A DNA stretch of 55,644 nucleotides, taken from positions 1 through 55,644 of the forward strand of contig JAKBCS010000014.1 in assembly GCA_021807595.1 (NCBI GenBank), in the 5' to 3' direction. Both the position numbers and the translations under genes were made by a program. Numbering within the stretch: position 1 is the stretch's first letter; every line of letters begins with the position of its first letter. The notes beneath the pieces are model-generated. The model was not told the DNA's origin and did no database searches. It saw only the letters and a program-made list of their open reading frames with translations. The DNA is from Planctomycetota bacterium. Lineage in GTDB: Bacteria; Planctomycetota; Planctomycetia; Gemmatales; Gemmataceae. Of this stretch, positions 3,929-25,270 are shown in pieces.

Positions 3929-6900
3929 ATGGAAAACAGCACCATCGTCATTCGCGGCGCTCGGGAACACAATCTCCGCAACATCAACCTCGATCTGCCG
4001 CGAAATCAACTTATCGTCTTTACCGGAGTAAGCGGATCCGGCAAAAGTTCACTCGCGTTCGACACCCTTTACGCCGAAGGACAGCGGCGCTACGTCGAAT
4101 CGCTGTCCAGCTATGCGCGGCAATTCTTGGGGCAATTGCAAAAGCCGGATGTCGATTATCTCGCGGGTTTGTCGCCGGCCATCAGCATTCAACAAAAGGC
4201 GGCGGGACGCAATCCGCGCTCCACGGTCGGGACGATCACCGAGATCTACGATTATCTTCGAGTCTTGTTCGCGCGCATCGGCCTCGGTCATTGCCCCGAA
4301 TGCGGACGACCGATCACGGCGCAGACGCGCGAACAAATCTCGTCGCGCATCCTCGCTCTGCCGGAAGGGAGCCGCTTTGTCGTCCTCGCGCCAGTAGTGC
4401 GCGGACAGAAGGGCGAGTACAAGGATCTCTTCGCCGACATGCTCAAGCGCGGCTTCGTCCGAGCGCGCGTCGATGGCCAGGTGGTTCGATTAACGGACGA
4501 CCTAAAACTCGACCGTCGCATCAAGCACAATATCGAGATCGTCGTAGACCGATTGAAGAACGAGGCCGGAGTGCGTTCGCGTTTGGCCGAAGCGGTCGAA
4601 CAAGCCCTGGCGTTGGCCGAAGGCGCGCTCATCGTATCCGTCGAAGAGGCGAACGGGGATCGTCGGCCCCCAGCTGAGGCGAAACGGGGGGCCGAAGCCT
4701 CCCGTTCGCCGCGAAACGATGACATCCTCTTCTCCGCTCACTACGCCTGCACCCATTGCAATCGCAGCTACGAACCTCCCAGCCCGCAACTCTTTAGTTT
4801 CAACAGCCCGCACGGCATGTGCGTCGATTGCGATGGACTCGGTACGCGCTTCACCTTCGATCCCGCTCTACTCGTACCCGATCCGTCACTCAGCTTCTTC
4901 AACGGCGCGATTCCGCTCGTTGGCAAGCTGCGCGGCATGGGTCGATGGCGACGGCACACCTACGAAGGGGTGGCCCAATCGCTCGGCATCGACTTGAAAA
5001 CGCCTTGGGAAAGACTGCCGCGCGAACAGCGGGACCAGCTCCTTTATGGGAGCGGCGACAAACACATCGCCTACGAATGGAAGCAGCGCGGCGGCAGCGT
5101 GTGGAAGCACGGCGGCAAGTGGGAAGGCATCGTACCGCAGTTGCTCAGCGGTTTCAAGAAGACTGCCGCCGGGCCGCGCCGGATGCAATTGGAAAAGTAC
5201 ATGCGCGTCGTCCGGTGTTCGACGTGCGGAGGACAACGGTTGAACGCCCAAGCCCGCGCCGTGCGCGTGGGCGGTAAAACGCTCGCCGAAGTGTGCGCGC
5301 TGCCCGTCGGCTCTCTGGCGGCATGGCTGGAAGCGGACAAAGGCGATCTCGAAAAGAGCCTAGCACCGATTCAGCGCGTCATTGCCGAAGAGATTCTCAA
5401 GGAACTGCGCGGCCGCGTCGGCTTTCTCCTCAATGTCGGTCTGCATTATCTCACACTCGACCGCGCCGCGCCGACTCTCTCCGGCGGCGAGGCGCAGCGC
5501 ATTCGTCTGGCCGGTCAAATCGGCTGCGGACTCGTCGGCGTGTTGTACATCCTCGACGAGCCGAGCATCGGCTTGCATCCGCGCGACAACGAGCGATTGT
5601 TGGACAGTTTGCTGCACTTGCGCGACATGGGCAATACCGTGGTCGTCGTCGAACACGATGAGGACACCATGCGGGCGGCGGATCATCTCGTCGATTTCGG
5701 CCCCGGTCCCGGCGTGCGTGGCGGCGAAGTCGTGGCGGCGGGGACGTATGCCGAAGTCGTCGCCAATCCGGCCAGTTTGACAGGACAATATCTATCTGGA
5801 TTAAAGCAAATCGTCGTCCCTGCGCGGCGGCGGCGACCGACGAACAAGAAGCTGAGCATCGTCGGCGCGCGGCATCACAATCTGAAGAATATCACCGTCG
5901 AAATTCCGCTCGGTCTGTTTGTGTGCGTCACCGGAGTCAGCGGTTCCGGCAAAAGCTCGCTCGTCAACGACATCCTCAAACAAGGACTACGACAGCGCTA
6001 CCAGCCCGGCGCGCGAGCGACGGGCAACGGCGACGAAGACGAAAGCAGCGAGAACGGCAAACCCATCGGCGAACACGATCGCATCACCGGCGCAGACGGC
6101 ATCGACAAGATCATCGACATCGATCAAACGCCCATCGGCCGCACCCCGCGTTCCAATCCGGCAACCTACATCAAAGTGTTCGACGAGATTCGTTCGCTGT
6201 TCGCGGAGATGCCGGAGGCGAAAGTGCGCGGCTATCAACCGGGACGTTTCAGCTTCAACAAGCCGGGCGGGCGCTGCGAGGCGTGCGAGGGCAACGGATC
6301 GAATCGTTTGGAGATGGATTTTATCGCCGATGTGTGGATGACTTGCCCCGTCTGCGAGGGTCGGCGTTTCAACCGCGAGACGCTGCAAGTCCGCTTCAAA
6401 GCCAAAAGCATCCGCGACGTTTTAGAAATGGATGTCCAGGAAGCCCTCGATCACTTCCAAAACGTGCCGAAGATTCGCGGCATGTTGCAGACTTTGCACA
6501 ATGTCGGTCTCGATTACATCAAACTCGGTCAGGCGGCTCCGACTCTCTCTGGGGGCGAGGCTCAGCGCGTTAAACTGGCGCGCGAACTGTGTCATCGTGC
6601 CACCGGACGCACCCTGTACATTCTCGACGAACCGACGACGGGACTGCACTTCGACGACATTCAGAAACTCTTGCAAGTGCTGCACGGCTTCGTGGAATCC
6701 GGTAATACAGTCGTCGTCATCGAACACAACCTGGATGTCGTGAAGACGGCGGATTGGATTCTCGACCTTGGCCCCGATGGCGGCGGCGGCGGCGGCGAAA
6801 TCGTCGTCGTCGGCACGCCGGAAGATGTGGCCGCATGTGAGGAATCTTACACCGGAATGGCGCTAAGGCCGGTGTTGGGACTCGATCGGAAGACGAGGAC

Positions 6901-9900
6901 GCAACGAGACGAGGCGAGCAAGCAACAAAAGAAATCTGTCCCTCGGTTCGATGCCTCGTCGCGTGCGAATCTCGTGGTCGAAGGAGCGCAACAACACAAT
7001 CTTCGCAATCTCACGGTGTCGTTGCCGCGCGAGAAGATGAGCGTTTGCTGTGGGCCGAGCGGATCGGGCAAAAGCTCGCTGGCGTTGGATACGATCTATG
7101 CGGAGGGGCAGCGGCGCTACATCGAATCGCTCTCGGCCTACGCGCGGCAATTCCTCGGCCAGATGCAGAAGCCGAAAGTCGAACACGTTAGCGGCTTGTC
7201 GCCGGCCATCAGCATCGAACAGAAATCGACGATCCGGAGTCCGCGCTCCACCGTCGGCACCGTCACCGAAGTGTACGATTACTTGCGCGTCCTCTACGCG
7301 CGCCTCGGTCAGCCGTATTGCCCCGCCTGTCAAATCCCCATCGGCACGCAGACCTCCGATGAGATCATCGAACGCATCCTGTCGTTGCCGGAAGGAAGCA
7401 AGCTCTACCTGATGGCCCCTTTGGAACGACGAGGCCAGGAAAAGTACGACGCGCTGTTCGACGAGATTCGCCGCAGCGGGTTCGTCCGAATGCGCGTCGA
7501 TAAGCGTTCGTACAACATCGACGATCCCCCTCAGATCGATCATCGTCGCAAGCATCTCGTCGAAGTTGTCGTCGATCGCGTGGTGGTTCGCAGCAATCAA
7601 CGCACGCGCATCGCCGACGCAGTGGAGGCATGCCTCGATCTCGGCCGCGGCGTCCTGCACATCGCCTCTGTCGAAGACGGCAGGCCGGAGCCGGACTGGC
7701 GCGTCGAGCGATACAGTCAGCACTTCGCTTGCGATCGCTGTGGGCGCAGCTTCGAGCCGCTCAATCCGCATCATTTCTCGTTTAACAGTCCGCTCGGCTG
7801 GTGTCCGACCTGCGAGGGGTTGGGCCTTCAACAAGGTGCCTCCCCTGCCCTGCTCATCCGCGACCCCCGCCGTTCGTTGCGCGACGGCGCGCTTGCCGCC
7901 TGGCCCGATTTGAACGAAAATCGTTCGTTTCTCCTCTTCGCCGAAGCGCTGGCGCGCCACGAGGGGCTTTCGCTCGATACACCGTTCGAGGAGTTGACGA
8001 CTCCGCAACAACATTCCATTTTGCACGGCACCGGCGAGACGTGGATTTCTCTCGAAGACGAGGCGAACCGCCCGAGTAAGCTGCCGAGTACGAACCACCT
8101 GGGAGCTAACGCTGCCGGTTCGCCCGGACTGCGCTTTCAGTACAAGGGATTGTTCCCCGCCATCGACGAGGCTGCTCGCGTCAGCCCCGCCTATCGGCAA
8201 CGGCTCGATCATCTCGTCACCGAAGTCGCTTGCTCGACCTGTCGCGGTTCGCGCCTGCGCGACGATGCCGCCGCTTGCCGTCTCCCCTTCGGCAACGACC
8301 GGCCTGCCCTCACGATCGGCGGACTATCCGCCCTGCCCCTCGGCGAGACGCTGCAGCTTTTCAAGTCGATGAACGTGACGAAGGCCCAGCAGCAAGTGGC
8401 CGGGGAGTTGCTGCGCGAAGTGCGAAATCGTCTGCAATTCCTGGTCGATGTCGGCCTCGATTATCTCTCCCTGTCGCGCCCCGCGCCAACGCTTTCCGGC
8501 GGCGAATCGCAACGCATTCGACTCGCCAGCCAAATTGGCAGCGGGCTAACCGGCGTCCTCTACGTCCTCGACGAACCGACCATCGGACTTCATCCGCGCG
8601 ACAATCACCGCTTGCTCGGCGCGTTGCAACATCTCCGCGATCTCGGCAATACACTCGTCGTCGTCGAACACGACCGCGAGGTCATCGCGGCCGCCGATTA
8701 TCTTCTCGATTTCGGTCCCGGCGCGGGCGACCGCGGCGGCGACATCACAGCGCGCGGCAGCGTCAAACAAGTGTTACGAAGCAAGGAATCACTAACAGGA
8801 CAATATCTATCCGGTAAGAAGTCTATCCCCGTGCCGAGCAATCGACGCATTCAACTCGCTGCGGAGAACGCAGAGAAAAAGACGATAAAGAAGAAGAACA
8901 AAACGATCGCCCAGAGTGAGTATTGCCTGAATTCTCCTCCGTCCTTCTCTGCGCGCTCTGCGTCCTCTGCCGTGAATCCTCTTCGTTGGCTGACAGTCAA
9001 GGGAGCGCGGCAGAACAATTTGCAGAATATCGATGTGGCGTTCCCTTTAGGTGCGTTCGCCGCCGTTACCGGTGTCAGCGGCAGCGGGAAAAGCTCGCTC
9101 GTGAATGAGATTCTCTATCAAACTTTGGCGAGACGTTTACATCGCGCCCGCACCCCGGCCACCGCCCACGACGACATTCTCGGAATCGAACACATCGACA
9201 AAGTCATCAATGTCGATCCAGATCCCATAGGCAACACGCCGTCGTCGAACCCGGCCACCTATACCGGCGTCTTCGATCTGATACGCCAATTGTTCGCGCA
9301 ACTGCCGGAGTCAAAGGTGCGCGGCTACCGACCGCAGCGCTTCAGCTTCAACAAGCCGGGTGGACGATGCGAGGCGTGCGAGGGCGACGGCCAAAAGAAA
9401 ATCGAAATGCACTTTCTCCCCGATGTCTGGGTGGAATGCGACGTGTGCCACGGTCAGCGCTACAATCCCGAGACGTTGGCCGTCCGTTATAAAGAACATT
9501 CCATTGCCGACGTGCTGTCCATGCGCGTTCACGAAGCCCTGGAGTTATTCTGCAATCTCCCGAAGATTCGCCGCGTCCTCCAAACGCTGGCGGACGTTGG
9601 ACTCGACTATCTGTCGTTGGGTCAAGCCGCGCCGACGCTGTCCGGGGGCGAGTCACAGCGCGTCAAGCTGGCGTCCGAGTTGGCGCGGCCCAGCACTGGA
9701 CGCACGCTGTACATTCTCGACGAACCGACGACGGGATTGCATTTCGACGACGTACACAAATTGCTCGAAGTCCTCAATCGGCTCGTCGATCTCGGGAACA
9801 CGGTCATCGTGGTCGAACACAATCTGGACGTGATTAAGACGGCGGACTGGGTGATCGATCTCGGCCTCGAAGCCGGTCCCGCCGGCGGCCGCATCGTCGC

Positions 9901-11023
9901 GCAGGGGACGCCCGAAGAAGTGGCGAAAGCCTACGGCACAAGCCATACCGCCGCCGCTCTCGTTCCCGTTCTGAAAGCCGGTCCTTACGTCGAACGGCCG
10001 CGCTTCGATCCGAATGCCGCCGATACGCCGCGCGCCGACGATGTGGAATTAGAGGAAGTCGGCAAGGATGCGGCCATGCCGTGGCAAGCGGACGGACGCC
10101 GTTGGCACACCGTCGAGCGCGTCACCACCGAGGGCAAACCGTGTCGCTGGGATGGCCGGATGCTCGATTGGATCGACGATCGCATTCACGAAATGGGAGA
10201 CTTTGGAGATACGGATTGGAACCAGCGTTCCGTCGTCGAAATCGCCGCTCCGATCAAGACGCAAGGTTGGTTTCTGCACGCCATGACCAGTCAAGAATGG
10301 CTTCTTCGACTGGTCTTCCGGGTCGAGAAGAATCGCTTCAAAGACGCCGACCTCATCCGCCGCCTCGGCATCCGTCCATTGAATGAGACGCCGGGATTGG
10401 AAGTCTACGGCAACGAACAGCGCGTGTGGACGACGGCACACAAAGGACCGTGGCAATCGGTGACGGTTCTCACCCATCGGCTCGGCGAAATTGAGACGCT
10501 GGCGTTCCGCGAATTTCTCAACGAAGCGGCCGCTTCTTTCCACAACAATTTGAAGAGGCTGCGCACCAAACCGGAAGACGTGATGCCGTGGAAGATCAAC
10601 GGCGAACGCTGGCACCTCGGCGACAAGGGTTTCCCGCCGGGAAAGAAAGTGCGCTGGGAGCGTTCGCTGCTGACGCGCCTGTTGCAAATCGTCCGCGAGA
10701 TCGAACCCGCTCTCGAGGTTCGTTGGGATGCGCGCGATGCCATCACGCTCCGCCTTCCGGAAGTAAGCCGCGCGTGGGCACAATGGCGTACCAAGAAGGC
10801 GAGTGCCTTGGAGTGTCATTTCCTGGGCCGACGCGGACAATTCAACCTCAGTCAAATCGAACATCTGGGTATCGAGCCTCGCATCGGCTCACAGCGCAAG
10901 GACGGCGATGTGTTGTCGTTGCACTTCCAAAAAGTGGATCAAGAACAAGCGAATCGGTTGCGAGACATCTTGGTCGAACATCTGCGCGGCTTTCGCGAGA
11001 CGTTTTTGAGACGGGCAAAGTAA
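3929..11023 (+). CDS. uvrA: tandem UvrA (two full excinuclease ABC A units in one polypeptide) with duplicated C-terminal module
   Basis: 2364 residues, about 2.5 times a normal UvrA (about 940-970). Unit A (residues about 1-985) and unit B (about 1010-2020) each contain two ABC ATPase halves. Walker A motifs GSGKSS occur near residues 37, 672, 1045 and 1717. Signatures [39 protein letters not shown] and [13 protein letters not shown] are present, with Walker B LDEP each time. Both pairs of CxxC...CxxC zinc modules are intact in each unit (for example CTHC/CVDC and CEAC/CPVC in A, CDRC/CPTC and CEAC/CDVC in B), so neither unit looks dead. UvrA acts as a dimer that finds DNA lesions and loads UvrB in nucleotide excision repair; this chain could supply both protomers. 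Residues about 2050-2364 form an unrecognised module with two related blocks, starting [11 protein letters not shown] (2050) and [11 protein letters not shown] (2219). Two short segments are palindromic DNA read in frame (see repeats). I recall UvrA fusions in other planctomycetes but did not check. Confidence 0.93.
4648..4710. repeat. nested palindrome inserted in frame in UvrA unit A
   Basis: Outer arms GGCGAACGGG (4648-4657) and CCCGTTCGCC (4701-4710) are exact inverse complements. Inside them CGGCCCCC (4664-4671) pairs with GGGGGCCG (4687-4694). The 63 bases are 21 codons and keep the frame. They encode a low-complexity Ala/Arg/Pro stretch just before the first zinc module, where ordinary UvrA proteins have only a short loop. 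It looks like a REP/MITE-type element domesticated in a permissive loop. Confidence 0.7.
8863..8970. repeat. inverted repeat in the inter-domain linker of UvrA unit B
   Basis: GGAGAACGCAGAG (8863-8875) is nearly the inverse complement of CTCTGCGTCCTCTGC (8956-8970), 11 of 12 bases matching over the core. The intervening bases encode a Lys-rich then Ser/Ala-rich linker between the two ATPase halves of unit B. Short CTCTGCGT-type repeats are, from memory, dispersed in several bacterial genomes. The reading frame is preserved through the element. Confidence 0.55.
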
Positions 11024-20031: not shown

Positions 20032-20724
20032 ATGCAAGCGCTGTGGACTTTTATCACGCACGATTGGTACTTCTTTTGGCCGTTGTTCCTCATGTCGTTG
20101 ACGGGGTTGACGCTGGTTTTCTGGCGCTTGCTCCTCAATCTGAACGGTGCCACCAACATGAGCGAGTTTCTGCCAGAGTTTCAGCAAAAGCTGGAGCGAG
20201 ACGGCGTGGAAGGAGCGTTGCGTTACTGTCGCACTCGCTCCGACATCATCCCGCGCCGCCTGTTCGTCGCCGGTTTGGAAACCTCGAAGCAGGGCTTGTC
20301 GGCGGTGCGCCGCGCCATGGCCAACGTCATCGAATTGGAGATCATGCCCGATCTGAACTTCCTGTTGCCGACGATCTTGGCCATAGCTAAAGTCGCCACG
20401 ATGGTCGGGCTGCTCGGAACGGTCATCAGCATGATCGGCACGTTTAACGAAATCCAAAAATCGAAGGGTGGCGATGTGGGTTCGCAGGCCGGGGCGATCG
20501 GCCTGGCGCTCTTCGCAACGGCCTTGGGATTGATTACCGCCATACCGCTGGTCTTCACCCACGTCTTGTTCAAAGCCTGGTTGGCGCAGTTTGAAACACG
20601 GATGAAAAGCTCCGCGCAGAAGTTGCTCCTCTTGCTCCAAGCCAAGCCGGCCGGCAAAGCTGCTCTCCCGGCAGTTGCCAACGCCGCGGCGGGAGCGCAA
20701 GGCTCGCAAATGCCGCGCAGGTGA
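20032..20724 (+). CDS. exbB: MotA/TolQ/ExbB-type proton channel protein
   Basis: 230 residues, ATG at 20032 with GGAGAGAG upstream. The first membrane helix is at about residues 10-33 (WPLFLMSLTGLTLVFWRLL). A cytoplasmic stretch follows (REGAL-like DGVEGALRYCR). Two C-terminal helices contain the family hallmark TMVGLLGTVISMIGTF and IGLALFATALGLITAIPLVF. These are the conserved features of ExbB/TolQ, which form the pentameric stator channel around an ExbD/TolR dimer and use the proton gradient to drive outer-membrane or cell-wall processes. Six bases separate it from the first exbD gene, and the second follows immediately, so the three form one operon. No tonB gene is present in the window, so the driven partner is unknown. 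Confidence 0.92.
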   Translation: MQALWTFITHDWYFFWPLFLMSLTGLTLVFWRLLLNLNGATNMSEFLPEFQQKLERDGVEGALRYCRTRSDIIPRRLFVAGLETSKQGLSAVRRAMANVIELEIMPDLNFLLPTILAIAKVATMVGLLGTVISMIGTFNEIQKSKGGDVGSQAGAIGLALFATALGLITAIPLVFTHVLFKAWLAQFETRMKSSAQKLLLLLQAKPAGKAALPAVANAAAGAQGSQMPRR

Positions 20725-20730
20725 TTCGAC

Positions 20731-21447
20731 ATGGCCGAAAAACGATTTCTCGACGTGTGGATTCTCGTCACGAACACCGTGTATCGAGAGGTGCCGTTCC
20801 CCGTCGTCTCCGATTGGATTCAGCAAGGGCGGCTGCTCGAGAACGACATGCTGCGGCGATCGGGAACGGCCGAATGGTTTCCCGTCGGCGGTTCCCCCGA
20901 CTTCGCTCCTTATCTGCCGCGCTCCGAACCGGATCGCGTCAACGATGTGGCCGAGGCGTTGGAGCCGGTCGAAATCGACTTTCGCTGGAAGAAATCTCAC
21001 GACGACGAAGACGACGACGTGGATATGATTCCGCTCATCGACGTGAGCCTGGTGTTGCTGATCTTCTTCATGTTGACCGCCAGCACGGCTGGACTCGCCG
21101 CCTTCGTGCCCACGCCTCCGGCCGAATACGGTGCCCTTGCCCCCAATACCGACGAAGTGCAACTGAACGTTAATCTCGAAGGTGAAGGCGACGCGCGCAA
21201 GCCCGTCTTCTCCTTCTCGGTCGGCAACAAATTCCTCGACCCCAAAGACGATGGCTTGGCGACGATGGACGAGTTGTTGAACCGATTGCGAGATTATTTG
21301 GACAAACTTCCTAACGATGTCGATGTCACCATCAATGCGCATCCGGACATAAAGTCTGGTTTGGTGCGCGAGTTGATCGCGAGGCTGGAGTACGATCCAT
21401 TCCGCAAGCGCATCTTACAAAAATACATTGGCGTCTCGGAGAAATAG
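20731..21447 (+). CDS. exbD: ExbD/TolR protein with N-terminal GYF-like domain
   Basis: 238 residues, ATG at 20731, six bases after exbB. Residues about 1-65 (FLDVWILV, YREVPFPVVSDWIQQGRL, TAEWFPVGG) have the pattern of GYF_2-type domains, which bind proline-rich or peptide ligands. The ExbD part starts near residue 95: VDMIPLIDVSLVLLIFFML is the single membrane helix with the essential Asp, followed by a periplasmic alpha/beta domain to about residue 235 with the usual conserved DVTINAHPD-like strand. ExbD normally has about 140 residues with a very short cytoplasmic N-terminus, so the added domain sits on the cytoplasmic face, where it could recruit partners or sense a signal. The GYF assignment rests on pattern similarity only. 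Confidence 0.87.
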   Translation: MAEKRFLDVWILVTNTVYREVPFPVVSDWIQQGRLLENDMLRRSGTAEWFPVGGSPDFAPYLPRSEPDRVNDVAEALEPVEIDFRWKKSHDDEDDDVDMIPLIDVSLVLLIFFMLTASTAGLAAFVPTPPAEYGALAPNTDEVQLNVNLEGEGDARKPVFSFSVGNKFLDPKDDGLATMDELLNRLRDYLDKLPNDVDVTINAHPDIKSGLVRELIARLEYDPFRKRILQKYIGVSEK

Positions 21448-21449
21448 CG

Positions 21450-22070
21450 ATGTGGAAGGTGCGCCACGAGGGTTCTCCGACGGCAATGGGCGATCTGACG
21501 CTGGCGCAGGTGGCGGAGGGTCTGGCCGACGGTCGTTGGGAACCGACCGATGAAGTCATGGGGCCGAACGACTCGGCTTGGGTTCCCATCGAAAGCCATC
21601 CCCAGCTGGCCGAAATCGCCGCCGACTTGGAGCCACCGCCGCCGCGCCACTACGACGACGAAACGCGCCTGGACATGAATGCGCTCATCGACGTGTGCTT
21701 GGTACTACTCATATTCTTCATCTTGACCACGAGCTACGCCGTGCTGCAAAAACGCCTGGAAGCGCCCGGCGTCAGTTCGGATAAAGTTGGACCGCCCATC
21801 ATCACCAAGGCGAAGATCGAGCAACAGATGGTCTACGTCCAAGTGCGCATGGAGAACGGAAAGCCGGTATTTCGGGTGGAGAAGGACATCGTGGAACCCG
21901 AACGACTGGAATACGAGCTGAGCCGCTTCATTAAAGCGACGAAGAAGACGCAGCTGATTATCGATCTCGACTACGACGCGCCCCAAAGTGCCTTGGTCGC
22001 CGTGCAGGACGCCGCCAAAGGTGCGGGCATGGAAAAAGTCAGTTTAGTTGTCCCCGACAAGGGGAAATAA
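21450..22070 (+). CDS. exbD: second ExbD/TolR protein with N-terminal GYF-like domain
   Basis: 206 residues, two bases after the first exbD. The N-terminus (MWKVRHEGSPTAMGDLTLAQ, then EGLADGRWEPTDEV and DSAWVPIESHP) is a clearer GYF_2-like pattern than in its neighbour. The membrane helix is LDMNALIDVCLVLLIFFIL, again with the channel Asp, followed by a periplasmic domain ending near the C-terminus. The two ExbD genes differ considerably, so they may form a heterodimer inside one ExbB pentamer or serve alternative complexes. Paired exbD genes occur in many Gram-negative bacteria; the GYF-like additions on both are the unusual part. A gap of 174 bases follows before the next gene. Confidence 0.87.
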   Translation: MWKVRHEGSPTAMGDLTLAQVAEGLADGRWEPTDEVMGPNDSAWVPIESHPQLAEIAADLEPPPPRHYDDETRLDMNALIDVCLVLLIFFILTTSYAVLQKRLEAPGVSSDKVGPPIITKAKIEQQMVYVQVRMENGKPVFRVEKDIVEPERLEYELSRFIKATKKTQLIIDLDYDAPQSALVAVQDAAKGAGMEKVSLVVPDKGK

Positions 22071-22244
22071 TAGAATACTATCGTTCCTCAAGCCTCTTGC
22101 TTTCTCGCGGAGAAAATGAGAGGATACCAACCACTCCATTGAATCCTACCGCGACTATCCGTTGAAACGGTTCGACATTCCAACGCCGGAATGGTCTCTC
22201 TCCAGACTAGGCTCCTTTTGTTTAGCGAGAGGAGAGCTGCCACG

Positions 22245-24530
22245 ATGTTTACCCTACCTCGCAATCCAGCGACGATTGTGAATGTGGAAGAAAATGCGCT
22301 CGTTCGTTCGACACTGACGAATTCCTTGCGAGAAGCGGGTTTCCTCGTTCACGAAGCGGCTTCGGCACATGAACTACAGCGCTTTACGAGGGAGAAGCCC
22401 GACCTCATTGTTCTCGGCGTTCATCTGCCCGATGGCAACGGCGTCGATCTATGCCGGAGCATCAAGGAGGATCCGGACACTGCTTCCAGCCTCATTTTGT
22501 TGATCGCCGACGATTCGTCGCAGAGCGGCGATCGGATTCGCGGCCTGGAAATCGGGGCGGACGGCTTCTTGGCCAAGCCGGTGAATGCCGATGAGGTGGT
22601 CGCCCACGTCAAGGCCATGCTCCGCTTTCGCCACAACGAAGAACACTATCATCTCCTGACCGAAAGCATTCCCCATTTCGTGTGGATGGCGCGCGCCGAC
22701 GGCCAAGCGGAATACGCAAATTCTCGCTGGTACGAATACACGGGCTTGCCGCCGAGCGAATCGCATGGTCTGAGTTGGCTGCAACAGATCCATCCATCCG
22801 ATCGCCTCAAGGCGCGGAAGACATGGGAGAACGCCGTAGCCACAGGGTTTCCCTACACAGTCGAATATCGCCTGCGACGGGCCGACGGTAGCTATCGTTG
22901 GCATCTCGCTCAGGGCTTGCCCTTCCGCGACGAGCGCGGGCAGATCGTCAAGTGGATAGGCACCTGTACCGACATTCACGCCCAGAAGACGGCCGAAGCG
23001 GAACTGCGACTGCGGGATCGCGCCTTGCAGGCCGTTTCGGAAGGCATCCTCATCACCGATCCACGACAGATCGACAATCCGATTATCTTCGCCAGCCCTG
23101 GTTTCGAGAGGCTTTCAGGCTACACGGTAGGCGAGGCGATCGGCCACAATTGTCGTTTTTTGCAAGGCAAGGATACCAGCCCCGACACGCTCGCCCAACT
23201 GCGCGAGGGCATTCGCTCGGCTCGACCGACCACCGTCGAGTTGCTCAACTATCGCAAGGATGGCACGCCGATCTGGATGTCCCTGTCCGTCTCTCCCATA
23301 CGCAACGAGGAAGGGGAGGTAACGCATTTCGTCGGCGTGCAGTCCGATGTCACCGAACGCCGACAGATGGAACAACAGCTAAGACAAGCGCAGAAGATGG
23401 AAGCGGTCGGACAGCTGGCCGGAGGGATCGCTCACGATTTCAATAACCTGCTGACCGTTATCAACGGCTACGGCGAAATGTTGCTGAATCGACTCAAAGT
23501 CGACGATCCTTTGCGCGAATCCGTCAGCGAAATGACCAAGGCCGGCGAACGGGCCGCCGCGTTGACCCGTCAATTGTTGGCCTTTAGCCGCAAGCAAGTT
23601 CTTGCACCGAGCATTCTCGATTTGAACTCCGTAGTCATCGATCTGGAGAAGATGTTGCGGCGCGTGATCGGCGAGGACATTCGGCTGGCAACGGACCTGC
23701 AATCGCCCCTGGACGCGGTGAAGGTCGATCGAGGCCAAGTGGAACAAGTCCTCCTCAATCTTGCCGTTAATGCGCGCGACGCCATGCCGCGCGGCGGGCA
23801 GTTGACGTTGCGAACCCGCAACGTCGCATTGGACGAAGGCTACGCGCGCGACCATCCTTATACGCACCCCGGCGCTTATGTAGCCTTGGTGGCGTCCGAC
23901 ACCGGCCACGGCATGACCCCGGAGGTCAAGGCGCGGATTTTTGAGCCTTTTTTCACCACCAAGGGACCGGGAGTGGGCACTGGCCTGGGACTGGCCACGG
24001 TCTATGGCATCGTCAAACAGTCCGGAGGCTACATCGAAGTTTTCAGCGAGCCTGGCGCGGGAGCGACCTTCGAGATTTATCTGCCTCGGGCCGAACGCGC
24101 GGTTCGTTCGAGCAAATCGCACCCCGGCGAGGCTCGTCCGGCTCCGCGGGGAAGCGAAACGATTCTCCTCGTCGAGGACGACGACGCCGTGCGCGCGTTG
24201 AGCCGATTGATCCTGCGCCAAAGCGGCTACACCGTTTTAGAGGCGCGAACTGCCCAGGAAGCGCGCGATGCGGCATTCCGTCGCGCCGAGCCGATTCAGC
24301 TGCTGGTGACCGATGTGGTCATGCCGGAACTCGGAGGCCGTGAGCTGACCGAGCGCCTTCTGATCGTTCATCCGGAGATGCGGGTACTCTTCGTATCCGG
24401 CTACACCGACGACGCCATCGTTCGCCGAGGCGTTTCCGAAGAGGAGGTCAATTTCCTACAAAAGCCTTTTACGCCTTTGGCTCTAGCGAGCAAGGTGCGA
24501 GAGATTCTGGACTCGATGCCCGCGAGTTGA
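22245..24530 (+). CDS. hybrid histidine kinase: degenerate REC - PAS - LOV-like PAS - HisKA - HATPase - REC
   Basis: 761 residues from the ATG at 22245, supported by GAGAGGAGAG 9 bases upstream. Order: receiver-like domain (about 8-125), PAS (about 140-250), second PAS (about 265-375), HisKA with EAVGQLAGGIAHDFNNLL (phospho-acceptor H397), HATPase with NLAVNARDAMPRGG, DTGHGM and GTGLGLATVYGI, and a C-terminal receiver with intact LLVTDVVMPELGG (Asp near 690). In the first receiver the phospho-acceptor position is Gly (DLIVLGVHLPDG, G58), so it cannot be phosphorylated in the normal way. The second PAS carries GHNCRFLQG, the LOV-domain signature with the flavin-reactive Cys (C303), plus LLNYRKDG and HFVGVQSDV. 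It lacks one usual flavin-contacting Asn (IWMSL where LOV domains have FWN). Inference: a blue-light or flavin-redox sensor kinase. A beta-carbonic anhydrase gene follows after 32 bases and may be cotranscribed. Confidence 0.9.
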   Translation: MFTLPRNPATIVNVEENALVRSTLTNSLREAGFLVHEAASAHELQRFTREKPDLIVLGVHLPDGNGVDLCRSIKEDPDTASSLILLIADDSSQSGDRIRGLEIGADGFLAKPVNADEVVAHVKAMLRFRHNEEHYHLLTESIPHFVWMARADGQAEYANSRWYEYTGLPPSESHGLSWLQQIHPSDRLKARKTWENAVATGFPYTVEYRLRRADGSYRWHLAQGLPFRDERGQIVKWIGTCTDIHAQKTAEAELRLRDRALQAVSEGILITDPRQIDNPIIFASPGFERLSGYTVGEAIGHNCRFLQGKDTSPDTLAQLREGIRSARPTTVELLNYRKDGTPIWMSLSVSPIRNEEGEVTHFVGVQSDVTERRQMEQQLRQAQKMEAVGQLAGGIAHDFNNLLTVINGYGEMLLNRLKVDDPLRESVSEMTKAGERAAALTRQLLAFSRKQVLAPSILDLNSVVIDLEKMLRRVIGEDIRLATDLQSPLDAVKVDRGQVEQVLLNLAVNARDAMPRGGQLTLRTRNVALDEGYARDHPYTHPGAYVALVASDTGHGMTPEVKARIFEPFFTTKGPGVGTGLGLATVYGIVKQSGGYIEVFSEPGAGATFEIYLPRAERAVRSSKSHPGEARPAPRGSETILLVEDDDAVRALSRLILRQSGYTVLEARTAQEARDAAFRRAEPIQLLVTDVVMPELGGRELTERLLIVHPEMRVLFVSGYTDDAIVRRGVSEEEVNFLQKPFTPLALASKVREILDSMPAS

Positions 24531-24562
24531 GTTGATTTTTTTCCGGGGCGAAAGGATCGTTC

Positions 24563-25270
24563 ATGTCGCGCATTATGGGCGGGGCAACCCGCATTCTTCA
24601 GGGAATTCAGCACTTTCAACAGTACGTTTTCGGCTCAAAAATGTCTCTATTTCGGCGGCTGGGAAACGGACAAGCGCCGTTGGCTCTCTTCATTACCTGT
24701 TCCGACTCGCGCATCAATCCGAATCTGTTGACGCAAACCGAACCCGGAGAACTGTTTATTTTGCGCAACGCCGGCAACCTGGTGCCGACTCACGGCGGGG
24801 TCAGCGGTTCGGCGGCGACGATCGAATACGCCTTGAAGGTGTTGCACCTCCGCGACGTGATTGTCTGCGGACACTCCAAATGCGGAGCCATGCAGGCACT
24901 GCTTGCTCCCGAAACGCTGCGCGACCTTCCGGCCGTTTCCAGTTGGCTTACCCATGCCCGCGACATTCTTCCCGAAGTCGATGCGGCCGGCGCTTCGTTG
25001 ACCCCCGCCGAAAAGCTCAACTTCGCCATCGAGCGCAATGTCCTACTGCAAATCGAACACATCCGAACGTATCCATTCGTGGCCGAAATGTTAGCGGCGG
25101 GACAATTGCGTCTACACGGTTGGGTCTATCATCTCGAATCGGGTCAGGTTACGGTGCATGTTTCCGGCCGAGATCGATTCGTGCCCTTGGCCGAGGCGAT
25201 GCTTCATTGGGAACGAACTTCGGCCGCCGGAGAGGGAATGGGAACGGGAGCCTGGAGTGATTCGATTTAA
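24563..25270 (+). CDS. beta-class carbonic anhydrase
   Basis: 235 residues, ATG at 24563 with AAAGGA 7 bases upstream. The zinc ligands and active-site pair of beta-carbonic anhydrases are present: CSDSR (C46, D48, R50) and GHSKCGAM (H104, C107). The flanking RNAGNLVPTHGG and the glycine-rich SGSAATIEYAL segments are also typical. The enzyme interconverts CO2 and bicarbonate in the cytoplasm. Length is normal for the family. It follows the LOV-type kinase by only 32 bases on the same strand without a visible terminator, so cotranscription is plausible, though a functional link is only a guess. The C-terminal 25 residues are Gly/Glu-rich and variable. Confidence 0.93.
   Translation: MSRIMGGATRILQGIQHFQQYVFGSKMSLFRRLGNGQAPLALFITCSDSRINPNLLTQTEPGELFILRNAGNLVPTHGGVSGSAATIEYALKVLHLRDVIVCGHSKCGAMQALLAPETLRDLPAVSSWLTHARDILPEVDAAGASLTPAEKLNFAIERNVLLQIEHIRTYPFVAEMLAAGQLRLHGWVYHLESGQVTVHVSGRDRFVPLAEAMLHWERTSAAGEGMGTGAWSDSI

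Follow-up and report, generated by a model that had tools for sequence, protein, structure and literature searches.

Pseudo-receivers are common in bacteria. Aspartate-less or pseudo receivers make up about 4-6% of receivers, and their working has been described as largely unknown (PMC12632262). Among the replacements in aspartate-less receivers, Asn accounts for 16% and Gly for 11%, and the Gly type was without a solved structure in the survey concerned (PMC4395418). The pseudo-receivers of the hybrid kinases CikA and ShkA inhibit their own kinase, and binding of a ligand or partner alters this inhibition (PMC12632262), while RitR, a response regulator outside any photoreceptor kinase, carries a PF00072 receiver without Asp (PMC4395418). 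Among light-driven kinases the order LOV domain, linker and kinase is found in the natural LOV histidine kinases Brucella LOV-HK, Caulobacter LovK and EL346, and in YF1 (PDB 4gcz), where the YtvA LOV domain is joined to the FixL kinase by a coiled coil. In YF1 variants, a linker of 7n residues gives a kinase that works in darkness and is repressed by light, and a 7n+1 linker gives the reverse (PMC6798134).

The window analysed here, a stretch of 55,644 nucleotides from a Gemmataceae metagenome-assembled genome (5.67 Mb in 282 contigs), contains a gene which joins these themes in one chain. The open reading frame starts either at the ATG at 22191 (779 aa) or at an in-frame ATG at 22245 (761 aa), from which all residue numbers are counted, and ends at 24530 on the + strand. 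In the protein, Pfam recognises receivers and PAS domains, two of each, together with HisKA and HATPase_c. The features are:

22191 to 24530, + strand: gene of a hybrid sensor histidine kinase, REC1-PAS-LOV-HisKA-HATPase-REC2 (open reading frame, Pfam, AlphaFold2 model)
22260 to 22640, + strand: REC1, putative pseudo-receiver, residues 6-132, with the EE acidic pair, Gly58, Ala88 and Lys111 and a complete predicted fold
22416 to 22418, + strand: codon GGC for Gly58, the phospho-acceptor position of REC1 (AAC, Asn, in the same-genus relative)
22641 to 22985, + strand: PAS_3 domain, residues 133-247 (Pfam)
23016 to 23396, + strand: LOV domain, residues 258-384, with the candidate adduct Cys303 in GHNCRFLQ and with N335 and Q366 kept
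23277 to 23279, + strand: codon ATG for Met345, the YtvA N104 position of LOV (ATT, Ile, in the same-genus relative)
23397 to 23600, + strand: HisKA/DHp domain, residues 385-452, with phospho-His397, 29 residues from Asp368
23601 to 24095, + strand: HATPase_c domain, residues 453-617, CckA-like, with intact N, G1 and G2 boxes
24153 to 24527, + strand: REC2, the intact C-terminal receiver, residues 637-761 (E644, D645, D690, S718, K740)

The part comprising LOV and kinase finds YF1 and the natural LOV histidine kinases as its top matches; unlike these, the protein has REC1 and another PAS domain before LOV, REC2 after the kinase, and Met in place of Asn104. It is probably, though far from certainly, a blue-light hybrid histidine kinase which is repressed by light and retains REC1 as an aspartate-less docking or conformational module; this reading builds on the observed domain order, residue states, conservation and linker length, and from these we infer flavin binding, the light response, its polarity and the role of REC1. 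Under blue light, an FMN-bound LOV domain would form an adduct between Cys303 and the flavin, and the signal would pass through the coiled-coil linker to HisKA/HATPase, there setting the net autophosphorylation of His397, from which phosphate would be handed to REC2. The combination of a LOV hybrid kinase, an aspartate-less receiver and a lost flavin Asn is a variant of known themes and not a new type of system. A literature search that covered few of the subscription journals turned up no paper on a LOV kinase bearing a pseudo-receiver.

The kinase motifs are intact (H397, QVLLNLAVNARDAM, DTGHGM and GTGLGL), and the best single structure match of the HisKA-HATPase part is the CckA-type core of PDB 5idj (E 7.3e-66), a likeness that does not extend to the sensory domains and does not imply a role in the cell cycle. 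REC2, which the first-pass annotation had left out, has an acidic pair (E644 and D645), the phospho-acceptor D690, S718 and K740, and since it is intact, the usual phosphotransfer within the molecule is still open to the kinase. In 44 of 45 family kinases, the Asp of the DVT motif precedes the phospho-His by 29 residues, against 36 in YF1, the difference being one heptad. As 7n linkers yield light-repressed kinases and the linker is one heptad from that of YF1, and thus in the same heptad register, the net kinase, which would feed REC2, is predicted by analogy to work in darkness and to be repressed by light.

The first-pass annotation had proposed, from the string GHNCRFLQG in the second PAS domain, that this is a blue-light sensor of the LOV type, to be tried by aligning the domain with LOV families, and the assignment to LOV is borne out by sequence, by predicted fold and by a residue filter from the literature. 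The string is present at residues 300-308, inside the Pfam PAS_9 match (266-371), and the adduct-Cys motif is complete (G300, N302, C303, R304, F305, L306, Q307). When the region is compared with all solved structures, its best matches are LOV photoreceptors, with E values down to 1.5e-37, including the Meiothermus ruber LOV domain (46% identical), YtvA and aureochrome. In an AlphaFold2 model for which 45 family sequences served as input, the region has a pLDDT of about 94 and the whole chain a mean of 83.9 with YF1 as its top fold match, while the pTM of 0.49 makes the placement of, and contacts between, domains unreliable. In the filter of PMC9098866, passed by domains with at least eight of nine conserved residues plus the active-site Gln, eight of the nine are present, as is the Gln (Q366, YtvA Q123). 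The ninth, on which the first-pass annotation was silent, is the Asn that in YtvA (N104) contacts the flavin C4=O (PMC10949197), here Met345. As only the first flavin-contacting Asn is kept (N335, YtvA N94), a definition of LOV by both Asn would leave the domain out, and the filter tolerates the loss of one residue, both Asn being usual in LOV and not defining (PMC9098866).

The loss of Asn104 lends some weight to a rather unlikely alternative, namely that the domain binds flavin but is no light switch and serves chiefly as a PAS domain that senses redox state or is constitutive: the residue is replaced both here (Met) and in the same-genus orthologue (Ile345), Phe343 is changed to Ile, and the equivalent of N104 is lost in only four proteins among about 60 family LOV domains. 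Against this, the equivalents of the Cys, N94, Q123, the Arg and Q66 are kept in both orthologues, and in YtvA mutation of N104 does not destabilise the protein and the photocycle persists, with moderately faster dark recovery (PMC4161478); the mutants considered from that study include neither Met nor Ile. Since N104 changes affect the photocycle only moderately, a functional, faster-recovering LOV domain is expected by analogy, and the natural Met and Ile variants may test how far this flavin contact is needed.

REC1 is recognised by Pfam as Response_reg (PF00072), in two stretches, and like RitR it belongs to the aspartate-less receivers. The first-pass annotation had reported a Gly in place of the phospho-acceptor Asp, and this is correct: REC1 reads VLGVHLPD where VLDVxLPD is usual, with Gly58 encoded by GGC. 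Its further claim, that the domain would be unable to take phosphate on Asp, appears even stronger than stated, as the Thr/Ser switch is also gone (Ala88); the residues point to a receiver incapable of phosphorylation. The acidic pair reads Glu15-Glu16, and Lys111 is retained. The wider reading in the first-pass annotation, of a light- or redox-responsive kinase that uses the pseudo-receiver as a fixed regulatory module, is plausible. An alignment of 332 receiver domains taken from the collected loci, some duplicates included, has Asp at the phospho-acceptor position in 320, and given the published share of about 4-6% a single missing Asp is uncommon, yet not extraordinary.

The only close relative found is the orthologue in a genome of the same genus (G003), at the same locus within a collinear block of 8.9 kb (90% nucleotide identity), the two proteins being 88% identical in a gap-free alignment; in its REC1 it has Asn58, Ser88 and Asp16. 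This bears on the suggestion that faulty sequencing or assembly of the metagenome-assembled genome produced the change from Asp to Gly, as GGC is one base from GAC. With the relative also lacking Asp (AAC) at the collinear locus, and Ala88 adding a second, separate change to that site, this is very improbable and was rejected; since the relative has Asn58 and Ile345, neither the loss of Asp in REC1 nor that of Asn in LOV is likely to be such an error.

Estimates of dN/dS between the two orthologues are 0.21 for REC1, 0.14 for PAS, 0.30 for LOV, 0.12 for HATPase, 0.13 for REC2 and 0.20 for the whole protein. In REC1, the orthologues differ at six of nine phospho-site positions and at 16 of the other 118 (Fisher p 0.0008, from two sequences only and for nine positions, the landmarks of PMC12632262, that were set after the alignment had been seen), and in REC2 none of the nine differs. 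On the plain reading, the phosphate chemistry of REC1 is free to drift in this orthologue pair while the remainder of the domain is constrained, a pattern of drifting phospho-site and purifying selection as expected for a retained pseudo-receiver. The purifying selection between the two orthologues tells that REC1 is kept; it says nothing of what REC1 does. The value for LOV is no lower than that for REC1, and a weaker constraint on LOV is possible.

A retained domain may also be a passive one. It is conceivable, though not likely, that LOV senses light while REC1 is a remnant or folding spacer, slowly decaying after the loss of its phosphate input, as the phospho-site is lost in both orthologues and the decay has gone further here, with Gly, Ala and Glu16 against Asn, Ser and Asp16 in the relative. 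Such decay is, however, at odds with a dN/dS of 0.21, near that of the whole protein, with the absence of stops and gaps, with the retention of the structural Pro62, Gly66 and Phe108, and with the complete, alternating beta-alpha fold predicted by AlphaFold2. The dN/dS likewise does not favour a pseudogene stretch. On the preferred reading, REC1 would descend from a normal receiver whose phosphate chemistry was lost in this genus, and would be retained as a docking or conformational module tied to the first PAS domain by one continuous predicted helix (residues 115-141); as the last helix of REC1 runs unbroken into this domain in the model, docking of REC1 could exert pressure on the sensor. 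CikA and ShkA also carry a receiver without a working phospho-site within a hybrid kinase, a likeness drawn from function alone; REC1 is N-terminal here.

The nearest other relatives of REC1 retain Asp. Gemmataceae LOV hybrid kinases such as L116 of genome G050 (REC-PAS-LOV-HK-REC) have the same domain order and linker length at about 50% identity, and unlike REC1 their N-terminal receivers keep Asp, with the exception of L174 in genome G084. Among family LOV kinases, Asp is present in all 53 C-terminal receivers and missing from three of 21 N-terminal ones, those of the window kinase (Gly), its G003 relative (Asn) and L174 (Gly). The latter is a distant multi-PAS LOV hybrid kinase of 1719 aa whose N-terminal receiver has the same pair of Gly and Ala; as this receiver is visibly unlike REC1 in sequence and looks like the receivers with Asp found in other kinases analysed, the changes from Asp to Gly and from Thr to Ala apparently represent an independent, convergent loss. 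A quite unlikely extension of the preferred reading is a two-input photoreceptor kinase, arisen at least two times in Gemmataceae, in which a pseudo-receiver with a ligand or partner as input instead of phosphate would gate a fast-recovering LOV switch. Coupling to a light-driven kinase would make the effect of a pseudo-receiver readable by switching the light, and relatives that keep Asp are natural comparisons for REC1. Kinship of the window kinase with another LOV kinase was considered and set aside, as the tree places the window pair alone with the nearest branches unresolved.

The named close relatives of the protein belong to Gemmataceae (Limnoglobus, Zavarzinella and Gemmata), to which the tree assigns the family members as well. 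LOV-like domains are widespread in Gemmataceae, with a match at E 1e-22 in 43 of 95 genomes, many of these being true LOV; the family counts derive from a profile, a regular-expression scan having missed some domains (e.g. L174, with GRNCRDLQ). Among some 60 LOV domains of Gemmataceae, about 11 have Leu, Val or Ile in place of the active-site Gln (L129, L131, L180, L182, L116, L197, L130, L190, L194, L199 and L185), and natural glutamine-deficient LOV receptors, a kind known from PMC9098866, seem to be frequent here.

The genome of the window holds no other LOV match at E 1e-22. A paralogue on contig C6 (L002) is 51% identical in kinase core and REC2 and is joined to an HDOD-like domain and PAS; a LOV domain was considered for this protein and rejected, as its sequence reads as an HDOD-like/PAS kinase. 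The LOV kinase gene is an accessory gene, absent from two other species of the same genus, and in one of these (genome G001, L217 and L214) ExbD and carbonic anhydrase are directly adjacent without the kinase. In the window (20032-25270) it is flanked by an ExbB/ExbD/ExbD cluster on one side and carbonic anhydrase on the other, with SecA nearby, neighbours which do not suggest an operon-based role in light. Elsewhere in the window (3929-11023, + strand), an open reading frame of 2364 aa carries the set of UvrA domains twice within a single chain, as a UvrA that is fused or duplicated.
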